Shown: piece by piece, positions 3,119 through 20,226 of the stretch
Position numbering within the stretch: the stretch's first letter is position 1
How the letters are laid out: every line of letters starts with the position of its first letter
From: a virus
IMG/VR virus record: IMGVR_UViG_3300026519_000045
Span: 1-32,680 of that record
Reading direction: 5' to 3' (one strand)
DNA: 32,680 bases
Notes under the pieces: model-generated
Databases searched by the model: none
Told to the model about the DNA's origin: nothing
Seen by the model: the letters and a program-made list of their open reading frames with translations, nothing else
Made by a program: the position numbers and the translations under genes

Positions 3119-3406
3119 TCAACCCAGTGGCGTCAGGGTCCGGTACTCGAACCCAGACGCCGGCCCCCCGTGCCACAGGCGCCATTCGTAGGCGCCCATG
3201 GCCTCGTGGATCCCGTCCACGCCATCGGGCGCGGACAGAACCACGAGCCGCCGGGCCGGAACGTACCCGTCGAGGTACCGTTCTTCGGGTACGTCCTCCC
3301 ACTCCCCTATGGGGTGGACACCCACCCCAGGGGCAGGGATTCGCCGGCGAGGGTTCCAGATGTCTGCCCCACCCTCGACGAGGGTGAGATTTTTAAATTT
3401 GATCAT
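3119..3406 (-). CDS. Unknown 95-aa protein, first gene of the structured-leader operon
   Basis: 95 residues starting MIKFKNLTLVEGG at ATG 3406-3404; GAGGGG lies just upstream on the minus strand. The frame stays open further upstream to 3799, but that stretch is the GC-rich structured leader and reads as low-complexity Pro/Gly/Arg, so I exclude it. The protein has beta-like N and C termini and no motif I know. It is preceded by a 9-bp hairpin (3420-3441) and the roughly 400-nt leader, and followed after 64 bases by the 319-aa gene. Its promoter belongs to the same family as the AcrIII-1 promoter, which makes an early host-takeover role plausible. Confidence 0.65.
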   Translation of the reverse strand: MIKFKNLTLVEGGADIWNPRRRIPAPGVGVHPIGEWEDVPEERYLDGYVPARRLVVLSAPDGVDGIHEAMGAYEWRLWHGGPASGFEYRTLTPLG

Positions 3407-3522
3407 GGTCCCCTCTGTTGCATCCCCGGCACCGGGGATGCCTGTTTGTGGACTTCCCGGAGCCCCACCCCACACGCTCCGGGCCTGGCCAGGCCGGGCC
3501 TCTGGCCGTCCCCGTCTCACTG

Positions 3523-3593
3523 GCCTGGGTTCCCGCCGCCCGGTCGGCGGTGTTGCTATCCGGGGCATTGCCGGCGCCCCCCGGCACCCAGGC
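3523..3593 (-). ncRNA. 71-nt three-way-junction element in the leader
   Basis: On the minus strand GCCTGGGT (3593-3586) pairs perfectly with ACCCAGGC (3530-3523). Inside are a CCGGGG/CCCCGG helix and a CCGCC/GGCGG helix joined by an A-rich linker (ATAGCAACA), the layout of many riboswitch- or aptamer-like junctions. I do not recognise a known riboswitch class. Helices in GC-rich DNA can arise by chance; covariation in relatives would decide. Confidence 0.3.
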
Positions 3594-3631
3594 TGTAGGC
3601 GCCCCCGGCCCCGCAGGGCCGGGCATTGTAC

Positions 3632-3808
3632 ATCCCCCGGCGGGATTCGAACCCGCACCTCCCGGCGCCTCCTCCCGCTGGCCAGGCGGGCGAGGCTGGC
3701 CACCCTTCCCCCCATCCCCAGGCCCCGGCCCAGTGGCCAACCGGGCTGTACCCGTTTCAGGGGTTGGGGTATAGCCTGCCGGGTGTGCACCCATCGCACC
3801 CCGGGGGC
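3632..3808 (-). ncRNA. tRNA-like domain: canonical T-arm, D-like arm and acceptor-like stem around a large insert
   Basis: On the minus strand GCCCCCG (3808-3802) can pair with CGGGGGA (3639-3633), 6 of 7 pairs with only the first mismatched. Exactly two bases later lies a D-like arm GTGC-GATGGGT-GCAC (3799-3785). A canonical T-arm, 5-bp GCGGG/CCCGC with loop TTCGAAT (3656-3640), abuts the acceptor strand as in tRNA. An anticodon-like arm CCCGC-CTGGCCA-GCGGG (3690-3674) carries T33 and anticodon GGC. A 94-nt segment separates the D and anticodon arms, so this is not an ordinary tRNA. Position 37 is C and the discriminator is T with no CCA. No tmRNA tag sequence is visible. It may be a tRNA remnant, a phage attP-derived tRNA 3' end, or a tRNA mimic. 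Confidence 0.4.
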
Positions 3809-3829
3809 TCATTTGTTAATTGCATCTAT

Positions 3830-3878
3830 ACTATACCACGGGCCCGACCGTTTGTCAAGACCCAATTTCGAGATTGGG
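3830..3878 (-). promoter_or_regulatory. Promoter with inverted-repeat operator for the structured leader operon
   Basis: On the minus strand TTGACA (3858-3853), a 17-base spacer ending GTGG, and TATAGT (3835-3830). Two bases upstream of the -35 box lies the inverted repeat CCCAAT-6-ATTGGG (3861-3878), a likely operator. Downstream is ATAGATGCAATTAACAAAT, the transcribed box shared with the promoters at 5862 and 14031. Transcription should start near 3823. Confidence 0.8.
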
Positions 3879-3901: not shown

Positions 3902-5566
3902 CTAGATCCAGGGCCGGTCCCCGTGGATGATGCCGGCTCGCTCCAGGCCGGCCATCAGGCGATCCACGGCCCGGATGGCCATGGCGTGGCCGATGGCCTG
4001 GCTGGCCTGCCCCCGGGTCATCTCCGGTGTAGCCGGCACGCCCAGTCGGGCCAGCATGGACCGCTGGCGGGCCGTGGCGGGTTTTCGGCGCCAGGCCGCG
4101 GACCGGCGGGCAATGCCACCGCCAGGGTGGCCCCGGACGAACCGTTCCGCCTGGGCCATGGCGTCCTCCACGTCATCATACCGGCCCAGGAGCTCCAGGC
4201 GCCCGCCAACCAGGTTGTACAGCCGGACCCGGTGGCCCCGGATGGGCACCTCATGCGCCAGGACCACCACGGTGCCGCCCATGTAGCCGGCACTGGCGAC
4301 CTGGTACTCCAAGCCGGCCCGCTTGTGGTCCGTCATGGTCCACTGGAGCCGGTTGGCCGTGGCCCATTCCAACAGGCGGACCCGGATCTGGTTCGGGTCC
4401 GCGTCTATGCCCCGGCGGACTGGCTCCGCCGAGGAGAACGCATCCAGGAGCACGCCCCGGCTGGATGCCCGGGCCTCGGCCCTCCGCTCCGGCCTGGGCC
4501 GGCCCAGCAGGTCCCCGGCCAGGAACAGGTCCCGGGCGTCCTGGGGGGCCAGGTCAATGATCACCGCGTCCGATTTGCCCGGCCACAGCCGCAGGGCCCG
4601 ACCCACCATCTGGAGATATAGTGTATCGGACCGGGTGGGTCGGGCCACCACCACGGCCCCGGTGGCCGGCGCGTCGAACCCCTCCGTCCACAGGGCACAG
4701 TTGACCAGGACCTGGACCTGGCCCTCCCGGTAGCGGCGCACCAGGTCGTCCCGGTCCTCGGCCCGGGTGGTGCCGTCCGCGGCCTCTGCCGACACCCCTT
4801 GGCATTGGAGATACTCGGCCAGCCGGTAGGCCATGCGGACGCCGGGAACAAATATCATTGTCTGCCGGTCTCCGGCGTACTCCGCCCAGGCCCGGTGGAG
4901 GATCTCGTGGACGTTGTCCACGTCCATGGCCGCGGCCAACTGCCCCTCGTCCCAGTCCTCTCCCCGGACCTCCACCCCGGCCAGGCTCACCGGCACCTCC
5001 ACGGCATAGGCGGCAAATGGCACCAGGGCCCCCATCTCGATGGCGTCCAGAACCGAGATCCGGGCCGCCACCGTGTCGAAGACCTCCGTCAACCCCTGGC
5101 CGTCAGCCCGCCGTGGAGTGGCCGTCAGCCCCACCACCCGGACATCGTCCGGCAGGTCCCCCAGGACCGCCCGGTAGGTGGGCGCGGCTGCGTGGTGGGC
5201 CTCGTCCACAACCACGCAGTCCACCGGCAACACCTCTCCAAGACCACGGCTGTGGAGGGTCTGGATGGAGGCCGAGACCAGCCGGCCCGTGGGGTCCGAC
5301 TCCGGCCCCATGTAGACCGTCGCCGGCTGGAGCTCAGGCCAGTGGTCCCGGACCCGCTCAACTACCTGGTGGACCAGCTCCCGCCGATGGCTGATCCACA
5401 GGCAACGGCCCTGGGGCCGGCCCTCCAGCCATCGCTGGACCAACCCCAGGGCCGTCTCGGTCTTGCCCGTTCCCGTGGCCATGGCCAACAACGGCCTGGC
5501 CCCACTGTGCCAGGCCGTCAGCGCATCCTCAACGGCCCGAACCTGGTAGTCTCGCAGCTCGATCAT
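3902..5566 (-). CDS. Superfamily 2 DEAH-box helicase
   Basis: 554 residues, starting MIELRDYQ at an ATG preceded by AGGAGGTGACACC. SF2 motifs appear in order: Q-like RDYQ (5-8), Walker A MATGTGKT (29-36), motif Ia-like SHRRELVHQ, DEAH (121-124), TAT (148-150), and in the second RecA domain GFDAP and motif VI as QMVGRALRLWPGK. This is the UvsW/type I restriction-like helicase group often found in phage replication modules, an ATP-driven duplex or branch-remodelling enzyme. The C-terminal 200 residues contain an extra beta domain and a helical tail carrying RQRSMLARLG, similar to the small search domain seen in other phage helicases. It is transcribed alone from a promoter at 5599-5626. Specific substrate unknown. 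Confidence 0.85.
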   Translation of the reverse strand: MIELRDYQVRAVEDALTAWHSGARPLLAMATGTGKTETALGLVQRWLEGRPQGRCLWISHRRELVHQVVERVRDHWPELQPATVYMGPESDPTGRLVSASIQTLHSRGLGEVLPVDCVVVDEAHHAAAPTYRAVLGDLPDDVRVVGLTATPRRADGQGLTEVFDTVAARISVLDAIEMGALVPFAAYAVEVPVSLAGVEVRGEDWDEGQLAAAMDVDNVHEILHRAWAEYAGDRQTMIFVPGVRMAYRLAEYLQCQGVSAEAADGTTRAEDRDDLVRRYREGQVQVLVNCALWTEGFDAPATGAVVVARPTRSDTLYLQMVGRALRLWPGKSDAVIIDLAPQDARDLFLAGDLLGRPRPERRAEARASSRGVLLDAFSSAEPVRRGIDADPNQIRVRLLEWATANRLQWTMTDHKRAGLEYQVASAGYMGGTVVVLAHEVPIRGHRVRLYNLVGGRLELLGRYDDVEDAMAQAERFVRGHPGGGIARRSAAWRRKPATARQRSMLARLGVPATPEMTRGQASQAIGHAMAIRAVDRLMAGLERAGIIHGDRPWI

Positions 5567-5598
5567 GGTGTCACCTCCTGTCATTATATATATAACCT

Positions 5599-5831: not shown

Positions 5832-5909
5832 GCCAATTTGCTCAAATCGGCAAACTGGGTCTTGACATGGGGCCGGACCTGTGCTATGTTACAGATGTAA
5901 TCGGCAAAC
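5832..5909 (+). promoter_or_regulatory. Promoter with operators for the AcrIII-1 gene
   Basis: TTGACA (5862-5867), 17-base spacer, TATGTT (5885-5890). Upstream is the inverted repeat GCCAATTTG-CT-CAAATCGGC (5832-5851, one mismatch). The 11-mer AATCGGCAAAC occurs perfectly on both sides of the promoter (5845-5855 and 5899-5909). The downstream ACAGATGTAATCGGCAAAC matches the box seen at 3830 and 14031. This looks like a regulated early promoter. Confidence 0.8.
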
Positions 5910-5961
5910 GCAGGCGGGCTCGCCTGGAGCCCGCCCCATCCACCACCGAGGAGGTGACACC

Positions 5962-6333
5962 ATGGCCAATCTGTACATCACGAACGCTTTCACAATCAAC
6001 ATGTTTACGGGCCAGGTGGCCCGGGCCCGGGTGGACATGATCCACCTGGGGGGCCCGGCGACTGCCCGGGCCCAGTTGGATATGGCCATCAAGGGCGGGT
6101 ATGAGATCGTGCCCGCCATTGGCCACGAGGACCTGGCTCGTATCGTGGCCAATGACCTGGGCTTGGACATGGTCCAGGTCCACGACCGGGCCACCGTGGA
6201 GTTGGGGCCCCAGGATGCCATCCTGGTGGCCCAGTACCGGGGCCCCCGGCTGGCCCCGGGAACCACGGCTCTCCCAGAGGGGGCCACCATCCAGTACTGG
6301 TGGGTGGTGGCCCAGTACGAGCACAACGCTTAG
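5962..6333 (+). CDS. acrIII-1: AcrIII-1 family viral ring nuclease (DUF1874), type III anti-CRISPR
   Basis: 123 residues, ATG preceded by GAGGAGGTGACACC. The protein follows the DUF1874 pattern throughout: an N-terminal YITNAFTINMF strand, then VPAIGHEDLARIVANDLGLD (50-69) with the conserved catalytic histidine H55 in AIGH, then AILVAQYRGPRLAPGT and LPEGATIQYW. Characterised members (for example SIRV1 gp29) are dimers that rapidly cleave cyclic tetra-adenylate, shutting off the Csx1/Csm6-type and related effectors of type III CRISPR systems. Cytoplasmic. It has its own promoter with operators and is followed by a 17-bp terminator, so it is largely a single-gene unit. The family assignment is strong; activity is inferred. 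Confidence 0.9.
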   Translation: MANLYITNAFTINMFTGQVARARVDMIHLGGPATARAQLDMAIKGGYEIVPAIGHEDLARIVANDLGLDMVQVHDRATVELGPQDAILVAQYRGPRLAPGTTALPEGATIQYWWVVAQYEHNA

Positions 6334-6335
6334 TT

Positions 6336-6384
6336 GCAAGCCCCCCACCGGGTAATCCATGCCCGGTGGGGGGCTTGCGTTTTT
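6336..6384 (+). terminator. Strong rho-independent terminator after the AcrIII-1 gene
   Basis: Perfect 17-bp stem GCAAGCCCCCCACCGGG (6336-6352) with CCCGGTGGGGGGCTTGC (6362-6378), 9-base loop, then GTTTTTA. It lies two bases after the AcrIII-1 stop and directly before the ribosome site of the next gene. Confidence 0.9.
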
Positions 6385-6397
6385 AGGAGGTGACACC

Positions 6398-7018
6398 GTG
6401 ATCGTGGACAATGCGCAGCCAAGGGAGATCGCAGATCTCCCGTTCCGCCTTCGGTCAGGCCATGCCGCCCGGCCCCTGGCCCTGGCCACCATCCGGGTGG
6501 CCTGGGACGGGGACCTGCCGGCCCTGGCCCAGGTGTCGGTCTGGCGCCACGTCGTCCTGGGCGCGGATCGGTACCCGGTGGCCCGGCTGGTGGACCTGCC
6601 GGAGACCGGGGCCATCGTCCCCACCCGGGAGCAGGCCCAGGCCCTGGCCCACGCGGCCATCGGCCTGGACATGGTGGCCCGGGTGGACCCGGCCACCGGT
6701 GGTCTTGCGGAGGTCCGGGTCCACCACAGCCCGGACCTACGGGATGTCCTGGCCTGGACGGACCCTGGACAGGGCATCGAGTACCAGGGCCTGCCCCTGG
6801 CCCACATCCCCACCCAGTGGCGGGCCATGATGGTGGTACCCCGCCACTGGGGCCGGGAGCAGATCCAGGCCGCGGCCCGGGCCACCGCGGCCATCACGTC
6901 CTACATGGCCAGCATGGCCAGGGCGCTCACCTATGCGCACCTGGTCGAGGATGGCCTCCCGATCCATGACCTCCTGGAGGAGGCGGTCAGGGAGGCGGAG
7001 CAGGCCCAGGCGCCATGA
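6398..7018 (+). CDS. Unknown phage protein upstream of the primase
   Basis: 206 residues from GTG 6398, chosen because AGGAGGTGACACC sits at the standard distance; the ATG at 6359 lies inside the terminator. The protein is mixed alpha/beta with an alanine-rich helical C-terminus that ends acidic (HDLLEEAVREAEQAQAP). I see no catalytic motif and no membrane segment. Its last four bases overlap the primase start (ATGA), so the two are coupled and may act together in replication. No promoter is seen between the terminator and this gene, so it depends on readthrough or on an unseen promoter. Function unknown. Confidence 0.65.
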   Translation: MIVDNAQPREIADLPFRLRSGHAARPLALATIRVAWDGDLPALAQVSVWRHVVLGADRYPVARLVDLPETGAIVPTREQAQALAHAAIGLDMVARVDPATGGLAEVRVHHSPDLRDVLAWTDPGQGIEYQGLPLAHIPTQWRAMMVVPRHWGREQIQAAARATAAITSYMASMARALTYAHLVEDGLPIHDLLEEAVREAEQAQAP

Positions 7019-8082
7019 CCGACTGGGCCCATGCCTACGAGCACCTCATCGGGCCCCCGGCCCGCGGTCCCCACGGCCGCTGGCTGGGGGCCTGGCTGTG
7101 TCCGCTGCACCCGGACAGTGACCCATCGTTCCTGGTGGACCGGGACGGGGTCCACCACTGTTTCGGGTGCGGCGCCCATGGCACCATCCAGGACCTGGCC
7201 CGGGCCCTGGGTAGGGAGCCGGTCCAAACGCCTGGGCTCTCCCCACGGGGACACCGTGAGCATCGGCCCCGGCGTCGGGTCCCTGCCACCCTCCAGTCCC
7301 GGATGGAGGAGGCAGTCCGACGGGGCCTGGCCCACCCGTCCCGGCTCCGGGCCTGGGCCACCAGGGGCGTGGCCCCGGAGACGGCCAACCGGTGGGAGCT
7401 GGGCCTGGGCCGGCTGCCCGGAGGCAGGCACGTCCGCCTGCTGGTGCCCGTGGTGGAGGGCGGCCGACTCCGGACCATCAAGGCCCGGGCCTGGGAGGAC
7501 GGAGACCGAGGGCCCAAATGGCTCTCGGTCAAGGGGGCACCAAGCGCCCTGTTCGGCGCGGACCACGCCCGGGCTACAGCCGACGGCTCCCAGGTCCTGG
7601 TGGTGGCGGAGGCTCCCCTGGACGCCATCCTGGCCATGCAGGCCAGGCCGGACGTTCTGGCGGTGGCCTCCGCGGCCGGCGCATCCGCGGACCACGGCCG
7701 CCTTGCCGACCTGGTCCGAGAGCTGGCACCCCGGATCGCCGGGGTGCTGGTGGCCTACGACAACGACCTGGCAGGATGCCCCAACCCCACCGCCCAGGTG
7801 GAGGGCCTCCTGCGCCTGGCGGAGCGCCGGGACCTGGAGGGCCTGGCTGCCTGGGCCGTTGAGCACGCGTGGGCCACGGACCTCCTGGACCGGTACGACC
7901 AGGTCAGGGAGACCCATGGCTGGCCCCGCATCCCCCAACCCCACGGATACCGCCTGGCCCAGCGCATGGCCAGGGCCCTGGCAGGGACCGTCGTCCCGGT
8001 CCACACCATGGCCTGGCCCGAGGACAGGCCCTACGGCTGGGACCTGGCGGACGAGGTCACAGCCAACAAAATTGACCGTTGA
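7015..8082 (+). CDS. DNA primase with CHC2-type zinc finger and TOPRIM domain
   Basis: 355 residues. The N-terminal zinc ribbon is C29-x2-H32 ... C49-x2-C52 (CPLH and CFGC), the CHC2 type found in DnaG-like primases. The TOPRIM core follows: VVAEAPLDA with catalytic E199, and VAYDND with D249 and D251. It is shorter than host DnaG (about 600 aa) and lacks a clear DnaB-binding helicase-interaction domain, which is usual for phage primases. It would make RNA primers for phage DNA replication. It overlaps the preceding gene by 4 bases. Its TGA stop is embedded in the -35 box of the next promoter. Confidence 0.85.
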   Translation: MTDWAHAYEHLIGPPARGPHGRWLGAWLCPLHPDSDPSFLVDRDGVHHCFGCGAHGTIQDLARALGREPVQTPGLSPRGHREHRPRRRVPATLQSRMEEAVRRGLAHPSRLRAWATRGVAPETANRWELGLGRLPGGRHVRLLVPVVEGGRLRTIKARAWEDGDRGPKWLSVKGAPSALFGADHARATADGSQVLVVAEAPLDAILAMQARPDVLAVASAAGASADHGRLADLVRELAPRIAGVLVAYDNDLAGCPNPTAQVEGLLRLAERRDLEGLAAWAVEHAWATDLLDRYDQVRETHGWPRIPQPHGYRLAQRMARALAGTVVPVHTMAWPEDRPYGWDLADEVTANKIDR

Positions 8083-8559: not shown

Positions 8560-8577
8560 CCACCGGGAGGTGATACC

Positions 8578-9672
8578 ATGATTCCACGACTTCAGAGCAC
8601 CCAGGCGGGCATCGGACTCCCCCGCCTGGGGCGGATCGCAAAGGGGGCCAAAGATGACAGGGACCGGCCGGTGGACCTGGACCATTTCCGCTTTGTCCCC
8701 GATGTCCAGGGTGATGAGGCGGAGGAGGTCCTGGAGACCCTGCGCCGGGTCTACGGGGATCGGCCCACGGTGATCCGGGCCATCCTGCCCCACGTGGACC
8801 CGGACGTGGTGTTTGAGGCCTGGTGCGAGGAGTGGGGCGCCGGCGGGCTCAAACACCGGTGCGACGGGGATAACGTGGTGCTGTACTACGACGCCAAAGC
8901 CCAGGTGTACGTGCAGCCCGCGTCCCCCATGCCATGCCCTGGGGGATGCCGGCCGGTGGGGAGGCTACACCTGATCATACCGGAGCTAAACCGGCTGGCC
9001 ACATGGACCCTCACCACATCCAGCGTCAACGACATCATCCACATCAGCCGCACCCTCCGCCATGCCGCCCAGGCCCTGGAGGGGATCGGCGGCCTGCCCC
9101 GGGTTGTGTTCCAGGTGCGCCGGGTCCCCCGCCCGGTGTACTATACGAACAAGCGGGGCCAGCGGGTGCGGCGAATGTCCCACCTGGTCCAGGTGGAGAT
9201 CGATCCGGTCTCCGTGGCCCGGGCCATGACGGCCCTGGCTGGCCAGGAGACGGTGGCTGCCCTGTACGGTGCGGCGTCTCCGCAGGCCCTGGTGGACACC
9301 GGAGCCGGTCCGGATGCCCTGGACATCCCGGCCCCGGAGGTGGAGGTGGATGTCAAAGATCAGAGCGACGACCAGGACGAGCCGCCCTGGGACCGGCTCA
9401 TCGAGCACGTGGAGGCCCTGGCCCAGATGGCCGCGGACGCCCACGCCATGGGGGCGGATCGGGTGGACATCACTGTGCCCACCCGGGACCTGGCGTGGAG
9501 CGTGGCCACCGCCATGGTCCGATCCAGCGAGGCGGACCTGGTGGACGCCATCAGGCGGGCCCTGGGGCGTCCTCTCCAGGGCTACGATGCCGGGGGCCGT
9601 CCGGCCGCCCGCCTGGAGGCCATCCGCCATGCCCTCCGGGACCTGGCGGCCACGCCGCCGCAGGAGGATTAG
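8578..9672 (+). CDS. Gp3-like / recombination directionality factor-like protein
   Basis: 364 residues, ATG after GGGAGGTGATACC. The start MIPRLQSTQAGIGLPRLGRI, then LDHFRF, VYGDRPTVIRAILPH, a cysteine-bearing region around PCPGGC, and GRLHLIIPEL matches my recollection of the actinophage Gp3-like family (often annotated as hydrolase or metal-binding protein). That family includes the phiC31 recombination directionality factor that flips serine integrases toward excision. An acidic linker near residues 250-280 separates a helical C-terminal extension. If right, it implies a serine integrase outside this window. Many members of the family occur in phages without a proven RDF role, so the function is tentative. 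Confidence 0.55.
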   Translation: MIPRLQSTQAGIGLPRLGRIAKGAKDDRDRPVDLDHFRFVPDVQGDEAEEVLETLRRVYGDRPTVIRAILPHVDPDVVFEAWCEEWGAGGLKHRCDGDNVVLYYDAKAQVYVQPASPMPCPGGCRPVGRLHLIIPELNRLATWTLTTSSVNDIIHISRTLRHAAQALEGIGGLPRVVFQVRRVPRPVYYTNKRGQRVRRMSHLVQVEIDPVSVARAMTALAGQETVAALYGAASPQALVDTGAGPDALDIPAPEVEVDVKDQSDDQDEPPWDRLIEHVEALAQMAADAHAMGADRVDITVPTRDLAWSVATAMVRSSEADLVDAIRRALGRPLQGYDAGGRPAARLEAIRHALRDLAATPPQED

Positions 9673-14016: not shown

Positions 14017-14080
14017 CCCCAAATTGGGGCTTGACAAACGGGGCTGGGGTGTGGTATAGTATAGATGTAGTTAGCAAACA
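14017..14080 (+). promoter_or_regulatory. Promoter with palindromic operator for the 78-aa gene
   Basis: TTGACA (14031-14036), an 18-base spacer ending GTGG, TATAGT (14055-14060). The perfect palindrome CCCCAAATTGGGG (14017-14029) ends one base before the -35 box. Downstream ATAGATGTAGTTAGCAAAC matches the transcribed box of the promoters at 3830 and 5862. Very likely regulated together with them. Confidence 0.85.
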
Positions 14081-14105
14081 GTGCTAGCCCACAGGAGGTG
14101 ACACC

Positions 14106-19392: not shown

Positions 19393-20226
19393 GTGCCCAT
19401 CTATGAGTATCTCAATGTCGTCCTGATCGTCGTTGCCGTCTCCGCGTGGGGATATGCATGGTGGATCCACCGAACTCGCTCTGGTCGCATCCGTGCCCTG
19501 GAGCAGGAGGTGGTGATCCTCCGGGCCAAACTGCATACCCTAGAGGCCCAGTTCGCCAACCTGATGGAGGTCAATCAACGCATGGTGATCCGAGAGCGGG
19601 ATCTGCTGCGGGCCATTGACCGGCTGGAGCGCGACCTGGCCCGGGCCCGCCAGCGGATCATGGAGCTGGAGCAGGCATCGGGCATCTCGAGGCTGTCCAT
19701 CCTCGCGGTATGGCCACGGGCCGGCGGCGAGGTGACCTCCCCAGCAGATGCCCTCTACAACACATCCCCCAATGTGGACTATATCCTCATCCCCCCGCCT
19801 GTCACACGGGAGCGTGTGCTGCGCTACCTGGACATGGGCCGCTACAATGTGGTTGAGGTGGATGCCCACGGCACCGACAGCGGGATCCTCCTGGACACCG
19901 AGGAGGGAGGACAGGACATCACCCGGCCGGGATGGTGGGCCCGAGTGCTGCGGGACCGGGGCATCGAGCTGGCCGTCCTCATGGCCTGCCGAACCGCCGA
20001 GATTGGCGACAGCCTGAGCCGGGCCGGCATCCCCTATGTGGTGGCAACCATCGGCGACATCACCGAGCGGGCCGCGTCCATGTTTGTGCGGTCGTTTTAC
20101 CGGTACCTGGCCGACGGGATGTCCATACCCGACGCGTTCGATCGGGCAAGGGGAGCCCTGCCCCAGGAGGACTACCAGCGGGTGCGGCTCTGGCGCAACC
20201 CGGCCACCGTAACGGAGGTCATGTGA
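19393..20226 (+). CDS. Membrane-anchored CHAT-domain (caspase-like) protease
   Basis: 277 residues from GTG 19393, with GAGGTGA at good spacing. Residues 7-24 (NVVLIVVAVSAWGYAWW) are a membrane helix, residues about 33-95 a coiled coil (repeated Leu/Ile, Arg and Glu). Residues 100-265 match the CHAT peptidase: VVEVDAHGTDSG carries catalytic H159, LAVLMACRTAEIGDSL carries catalytic C199, and the typical end follows (GIPYVVATIGDITERAASMF, then SFYRYLADGMSIPDAFDRAR). CHAT proteases are clan CD cysteine proteases that cut partner proteins, including gasdermins and type III CRISPR-linked substrates. Its place between terminase and portal is not standard; the prohead protease is a separate gene at 24190. 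A 54-aa membrane peptide follows after one base. Confidence 0.8.
   Translation: MPIYEYLNVVLIVVAVSAWGYAWWIHRTRSGRIRALEQEVVILRAKLHTLEAQFANLMEVNQRMVIRERDLLRAIDRLERDLARARQRIMELEQASGISRLSILAVWPRAGGEVTSPADALYNTSPNVDYILIPPPVTRERVLRYLDMGRYNVVEVDAHGTDSGILLDTEEGGQDITRPGWWARVLRDRGIELAVLMACRTAEIGDSLSRAGIPYVVATIGDITERAASMFVRSFYRYLADGMSIPDAFDRARGALPQEDYQRVRLWRNPATVTEVM

Follow-up and report, generated by a model that had tools for sequence, protein, structure and literature searches.

A tRNA-like core with an expanded anticodon branch downstream of a phage promoter

INTRODUCTION

What is carried by the ~420 nt that separate a promoter from the first protein gene behind it in a phage genome? The DNA analyzed here (the window) is a virus record of 32,680 bases with a G+C content of 65.8%, and a BLAST search of a phage collection returned no close relatives of its phage. 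The minus strand carries, in this order, a helicase gene, a promoter, the ~420-nt leader, and a small gene (Table 1), whose 95-aa product has no Pfam match and no relatives that we could find. No integrase was recognized among the genes checked in this fragment, yet a Gp3-like (recombination directionality factor-like) protein is encoded at 8578-9672 (+). A gene for a CHAT-domain (caspase-like) protein at 19393-20226 (+) is flanked by terminase and portal genes.

The original prediction saw no apparent coding function in the leader, and our analysis agrees: a coding leader was ruled out, as none of the reading frames tested carries the codon signature of the phage's own genes.

RESULTS

TABLE 1 Positions of the leader elements and flanking genes in the window
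Feature	Position	Strand	Remark
Helicase gene	3902-5584	-	
Sigma-70 type promoter	3830-3858	-	TTGACA-17-TATAGT, extended TG
Short 5' leader, ~17 nt	3809-3826	-	Precedes tRNA-like domain; start site predicted from sequence
Acceptor stem, 5' strand	3802-3808	-	
D arm	3785-3799	-	4 bp
Anticodon-type stem, 5' strand	3778-3783	-	CCCGGC; pairing probability 0.96 for the first five pairs
Insert replacing anticodon loop	3666-3778	-	113 nt; predicted three-way junction and two hairpins; C3778/G3666 may pair
Hairpin within insert	3674-3690	-	CCCGC-CTGGCCA-GCGGG
Anticodon-type stem, 3' strand	3661-3666	-	GCCGGG
Variable loop	3657-3660	-	Class I
T arm	3640-3656	-	Perfect; abuts acceptor; sole T-arm match in window
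Acceptor stem, 3' strand	3633-3639	-	No CCA encoded
GC-rich hairpin directly before gene	3420-3441	-	Perfect; GCATCCCCG-GTGC-CGGGGATGC
First protein gene 3' of leader	3119-3406	-	95 aa

Promoter and architecture of the core

The strong promoter proposed ahead of the element is borne out by 11 of 12 consensus matches at 3858-3830 (-). Transcription from it is predicted to start at about 3823 to 3826, and a tRNA-like core spanning 3808-3633 on the minus strand begins about 17 nt past that position. The promoter flanks recur twice on the plus strand, at 5834-5908 (72% over 75 nt) and at 14021-14078 (83%); because both of these sibling promoters reach a gene with a Shine-Dalgarno site within about 75 nt, the long leader is special to the 3858-3830 copy. 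A promoter pattern search found two loci, neither with a comparable leader. The sequence common to the three copies (GATGTAATTAGCAAAC-like; 5834-5908 and 14021-14098 on the plus strand, 3886-3812 on the minus strand) extends from upstream of the -35 element into the first transcribed bases, and this likeness suggests a possible common operator or early-transcribed element.

Read from 3808, the core runs GCCCCCG, GG, GTGC-GATGGGT-GCAC, A, CCCGG, 113 nt, CCGGG, AGGT, GCGGG-TTCGAAT-CCCGC, and CGGGGGA. The sequence thus shows the spacing of a tRNA for its acceptor, D arm, variable loop, and T arm, and the 113 nt take the place of the anticodon loop. Six of the seven acceptor pairs are Watson-Crick, the G1.A72 mismatch being the sole imperfect pair in the core stems; GG forms the 2-nt gap between the acceptor 5' strand and the D arm, and the anticodon-type stem, of 5 to 6 bp, lies 1 nt past the D arm and 4 nt (AGGT) ahead of the T arm. 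The D arm resembles those of a tRNA-Met at L024 (GTGC-GACGGTC-GCAC) and of L021 (loop GATGGCC). The insert is predicted to fold into a long, GC-rich branch containing a three-way junction.

The acceptor-like stem, two-base gap, 4-bp D arm, and T arm abutting the acceptor that were originally proposed could each be located, stood up to the strict-spacing statistics below, and have analogues in other phages. The inner part of the original model has to be redrawn: the insert measures 113 rather than 94 nt and occupies the anticodon loop instead of separating the D arm from the anticodon arm, and the supposed anticodon arm is a hairpin inside that insert (3690-3674), whereas the CCCGGC/GCCGGG stem adjoining the D arm and AGGT fits better by its pairing probability. 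With the 94 nt excised, ARAGORN does call a tRNA-Ala(GGC), but this model leaves 17 nt before the T arm, has C37, and ignores the better stem.

Comparison with chance

T-arm matches are expected 0.05 times per window, and one is observed (3656-3640, minus strand). With that T arm given, our strict test demanded 6/7 or better pairing in the acceptor, 2 nt between it and a 4-bp D stem whose loop contains GG, and, after 1 nt more, a 5-bp anticodon stem that leaves 4 to 5 nt to the T arm. This arrangement arose at 1 of 30,000 random positions of the phage genome and in 0.7 to 1 per 10,000 Markov leaders, giving an overall control rate for canonical spacing, T arm given, of about 3e-5 to 1e-4. As looser spacing rules are passed by 1 to 3% of controls, it is the strict spacing that carries the argument. 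The tRNA-like core is real.

Folding energy is ordinary: the z value is -0.96 for the leader as a whole, and values for the tRNA-like part range from about -1.1 to +0.25. The cloverleaf exceeds the minimum free energy (MFE) structure by 3.2 kcal/mol. Folded without constraints, the ensemble gives pairing probabilities of 0.96 in the anticodon stem and 0.62 to 0.73 in the acceptor, and the T- and D-arm pairs, at 0.05 or less, are minority structures. The 71-nt three-way junction downstream, which the original prediction listed, has no stability beyond chance (z of -0.2 to +0.6). Of the further stable helices reported before the first gene, only the last hairpin (3441-3420; z of -4.05) stands out, the others being at chance level for 72% G+C. 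Read on the plus strand, this hairpin resembles a weak terminator; none was found on the leader's own, minus strand.

Tests against known RNA families

The core shares with canonical tRNA (RF00005) the acceptor, 2-nt gap, D arm, 1-nt spacer, anticodon stem, 4-nt variable loop, and T arm, all in canonical spacing, but differs in having 113 nt for a loop and in lacking U33, U8, A14, A21, and a score with the model. ARAGORN in default mode found neither a tRNA nor a tmRNA, and Rfam gave no tRNA match even at an E value of ≤10. Around the CCCGG/CCGGG stem and its one-step shift, a 7-nt anticodon loop with U33 is present neither directly nor after any single excision. The bases expected to make tertiary contacts are G8, G14, and T21; tRNAs and tRNA-like elements of other phages with a GAYGG D loop likewise lack some of U8, A14, and A21.

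Like tmRNA (SsrA), the element combines a tRNA-like domain with other RNA in place of the anticodon arm, but this RNA is only 113 nt long, pair 3-70 is C-G rather than the G3.U70 of alanine identity, Rfam found no tmRNA, and ARAGORN made only permuted, low-threshold calls at a 50% cutoff. We therefore rejected a tmRNA, and the tmRNA relative that the original prediction had entertained is not supported; nor is its other suggestion, an unusual tRNA in the decoding sense, given the missing U33 and the empty default searches. No T-box, riboswitch, or other leader matched in Rfam, nor did any ribozyme in the window. What the core does offer is the acceptor/T-arm coaxial stack of an RNase P substrate, with 6 + 5 pairs behind a predicted ~17-nt 5' leader.

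A BLAST search of phages returned no homologue of the leader, nor did a search through the protein relatives of the neighboring genes. Exact searches with the core in viral and genome collections turned up no homologous leader, the 30-nt core being unmatched across 84,980 species genomes, and the capsid relatives (L006-L014) carry no Rfam RNA in the stretches examined. With no homologue, the element itself offers no covariation.

Comparable elements in other phages

An exact search with the 21-mer AGGTGCGGGTTCGAATCCCGC hit 31 public viral loci, and in nearly all of those inspected the string sits in a tRNA or a recognizable tRNA-like element, so that it marks tRNA descent. About half of the loci are ordinary tRNAs. 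At least 11 loci (L020, L021, L023, L025, L027, L028, L035, L038, L040, L045, and L050) depart from the usual tRNA in that the anticodon arm is abnormal or absent or an arm is inserted elsewhere, and keep the acceptor and T arms of a tRNA and, in most, the D arm; as the set was picked by the window's own T-arm string, it establishes that the architecture exists in phages and does not imply homology to the window element.

The anticodon loop is reduced to a few nucleotides, or the arm is missing, in the first eight of these. In L040 (81-198), the acceptor is perfect and the anticodon arm normal (loop CTGCTAA), but ~50 nt are inserted between the D and anticodon arms; the element ends ~20 nt ahead of a 499-aa reading frame; the tRNA-like element at L045 (941-1034) has an extra hairpin in the D loop. 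At a further locus, L030, there is a perfect acceptor pair at 113 nt, with inner arms that are not clearly readable. Across the acceptors of 12 tRNA-like elements from several unrelated phage lineages (window excluded; rows partly unrelated elements), all seven pairs vary on both sides and 96.4% of cells are paired, which shows genuine acceptors and not covariation at one locus. MAFFT aligned the D and anticodon regions of the class poorly. Most of the comparable elements end 14 to 60 nt ahead of a start codon, and that of the window ends ~226 nt ahead. Elements of this kind are either overlooked by automatic tRNA finders or reported as undetermined tRNAs, and we found no description of anticodon-less phage tRNA-like elements in the open-licence literature.

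A further comparison comes from Mu-like phages of Porphyromonas. L050 matches ten Porphyromonas gingivalis phage records (BK068089-BK068096 and PP754929-30) in the region before the transposase gene, and we aligned eight of the ten with L035 and L050 (set L035, L050-L058). All of the aligned Porphyromonas phages carry an unannotated tRNA-like element that ends about 20 nt ahead of the transposase start. Two forms of its anticodon branch occur: most of the phages have a stub of 14 nt, and L050, L051, and L052 have 61 nt. Acceptor, D, and T parts are conserved across both forms; an A-to-G change in the acceptor preserves pairing as U-G, and the sequence upstream changes abruptly at the acceptor. 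In L050, the 61-nt branch is predicted to fold as an anticodon stem that leads into a three-way junction, and this is also the MFE structure. These elements share with the window element a retained acceptor, D, and T core and an aberrant anticodon branch whose long forms open into a three-way junction; they differ in lying ~20 nt before the gene and in scoring as tRNA in Rfam (45.3 bits for L050), and sequence homology to the window element is limited to the T arm and AGGT.

DISCUSSION

We consider the window element to be a noncoding, non-decoding, tRNA-like RNA that is transcribed from its own phage promoter and probably processed by RNase P, a reading to which we assign a probability of about 0.45, somewhat short of even odds. 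A transcript with a short 5' leader and an intact acceptor/T-arm stack is a plausible substrate for that enzyme, whose reported targets include model substrates made of an acceptor/T-arm, the M3 RNA of a phage, and the precursor of the C4 RNA of phages P1 and P7 (PMC11143913). The stack would be recognized by host RNase P, with a cut near 3809/3808, and by a nuclease of tRNA 3' processing, with a cut near 3632; cleavage would free an RNA of ~177 nt, provide the mRNA of the downstream small gene with a defined 5' end, or both. Without a use in decoding, the anticodon branch could vary freely, and removal of that constraint would explain its variation.

The C4 and M3 RNAs (PMC11143913) are similar in being phage RNAs with a stem readable as an acceptor/T-arm substrate, whereas the window element has a complete cloverleaf core and its cleavage is our inference. 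The theta ribozyme-tRNA pairs of gut phages (PMC10879173) also tie a phage tRNA to RNA processing, but those tRNAs mostly have an assigned anticodon and the window has no ribozyme match. In favor of the RNase P reading are the strict tRNA spacing given the T arm, the tie of the T-arm string to tRNA descent, the genuine acceptors and aberrant anticodon branches of the elements in other phages, and the location of most of these shortly before a start codon. Counting against it are the lack of a homologue, the ordinary folding energy, the minority status of the T and D arms, the 1-72 G.A mismatch, the missing U8/A14/A21, the absence of CCA, and the ~226 nt to the gene.

The loss of U8/A14/A21 and U33 and the 1-72 mismatch would suit a functionless relic, left when an insertion broke up the anticodon arm of a tRNA gene of phage or host origin, and fragments of tRNA genes are common around mobile elements (PMC9897764). 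We regard such a relic as unlikely, though still worth weighing: all stems are perfectly Watson-Crick save one pair, a promoter lies ~20 nt upstream, and comparable aberrant elements are kept in many Porphyromonas phage genomes.

Two further functional readings strike us as improbable to the same degree. The first is a decoy or mimic of tRNA that would tie up a host protein able to bind tRNAs (a defense nuclease, processing enzyme, synthetase, or EF-Tu); the promoter and tRNA core would be in keeping with it, and phage tRNAs have been reported to evade tRNA-targeting defenses (PMC10264068), but the window element has no anticodon and we can name no defense target. Known anticodon nucleases require an anticodon. 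The second is an uncleaved cis-acting 5' leader that controls the downstream gene by its fold, as in tRNA-like translational or attenuation control. Its location within the ~420-nt leader agrees with this, as does the position of most comparable elements in the 5' region of a gene; yet with a promoter of its own and a 5' leader of ~17 nt the element resembles the transcription unit of a tRNA, the gene is 226 nt away, and neither a terminator on the leader strand nor a known riboswitch or T-box was found.

A tRNA with an intron in the anticodon loop, spliced to a decoding form, is very improbable. With introns allowed, ARAGORN does place a tRNA-Arg(CCT) at 3631-3809, interrupted by an intron of 86 nt, but we rejected this model for its weak anticodon stem and odd variable arm, and since the good stem yields no U33 by any single excision, the element is not an intron-bearing decoding tRNA. 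Group I introns are longer than 113 nt, the promoter is bacterial, and no tRNA splicing endonuclease is expected in bacteria.

In phages, the attP site may cover the 3' half of a tRNA gene (PMC10865867), but an attP copied from the 3' half of a host tRNA gene seems extremely improbable here, as the 5' half (acceptor and D arm) is also present, the 30-nt core has no exact match in the species genomes searched, no integrase was recognized among the genes checked, and the Porphyromonas phages are expected to integrate by transposase. A chance fold of GC-rich sequence, which the ordinary folding energy and the pass rate under looser rules would allow, is just as improbable given a strict-spacing rate of about 1e-4 on top of a T arm that is itself rarely expected.

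Beyond the window, we suggest, with slightly less assurance than for the RNase P reading of the window element itself, that an unrecognized class of tRNA-like elements, not used in decoding, lies a short way ahead of genes in unrelated phage lineages. Such elements would retain the acceptor, D, and T arms, and their anticodon branch could shrink, grow into a three-way junction, or vanish; they may serve phage mRNAs as sites of processing or control, with the window holding the longest branch seen here. If these are indeed non-decoding processing or regulatory elements, an unassigned part of phage tRNA content would gain a codon-independent role, and host RNase P could be a routine regulator of phage transcripts. 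The two natural anticodon-branch forms at one locus in the Porphyromonas phages make the idea testable.

Several of the loci have features of their own. Anticodon-less tRNA-like elements at L020 (7597-7526), L023 (12238-12306), L025 (681-749), and L027 (2672-2606) have G3.U70 and mostly A73, which is the alanine identity used by tmRNA. By eye, and below the Rfam gathering score, a hammerhead-ribozyme-like sequence (CTGATGAGTCC...GACGAAAC...GTC) lies ~40 to 100 nt upstream of these four. In the GC-rich phage contig L021, five type II hammerhead ribozymes (RF02276) lie at 5953-7835, mostly between small genes, and another intergenic gap holds an anticodon-less tRNA-like element with an encoded CCA (9139-9205); both the ribozymes and this element could be sites of transcript cleavage. 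Finally, at L033 (around 1177-1577), L043 (around 8569-8969), L046, and L039 (around 264-664), the 3' half of a tRNA (T arm and acceptor 3' strand) comes first; 2 to 9 nt later comes the acceptor 5' strand that can pair with it, and then a D arm, as in L033 with CTCCCCC-GACGCAAGC-GGGGGAG, a D arm, and CTGGTC/GATCAG. By their order of parts, these four look like circularly permuted tRNA genes in phages.
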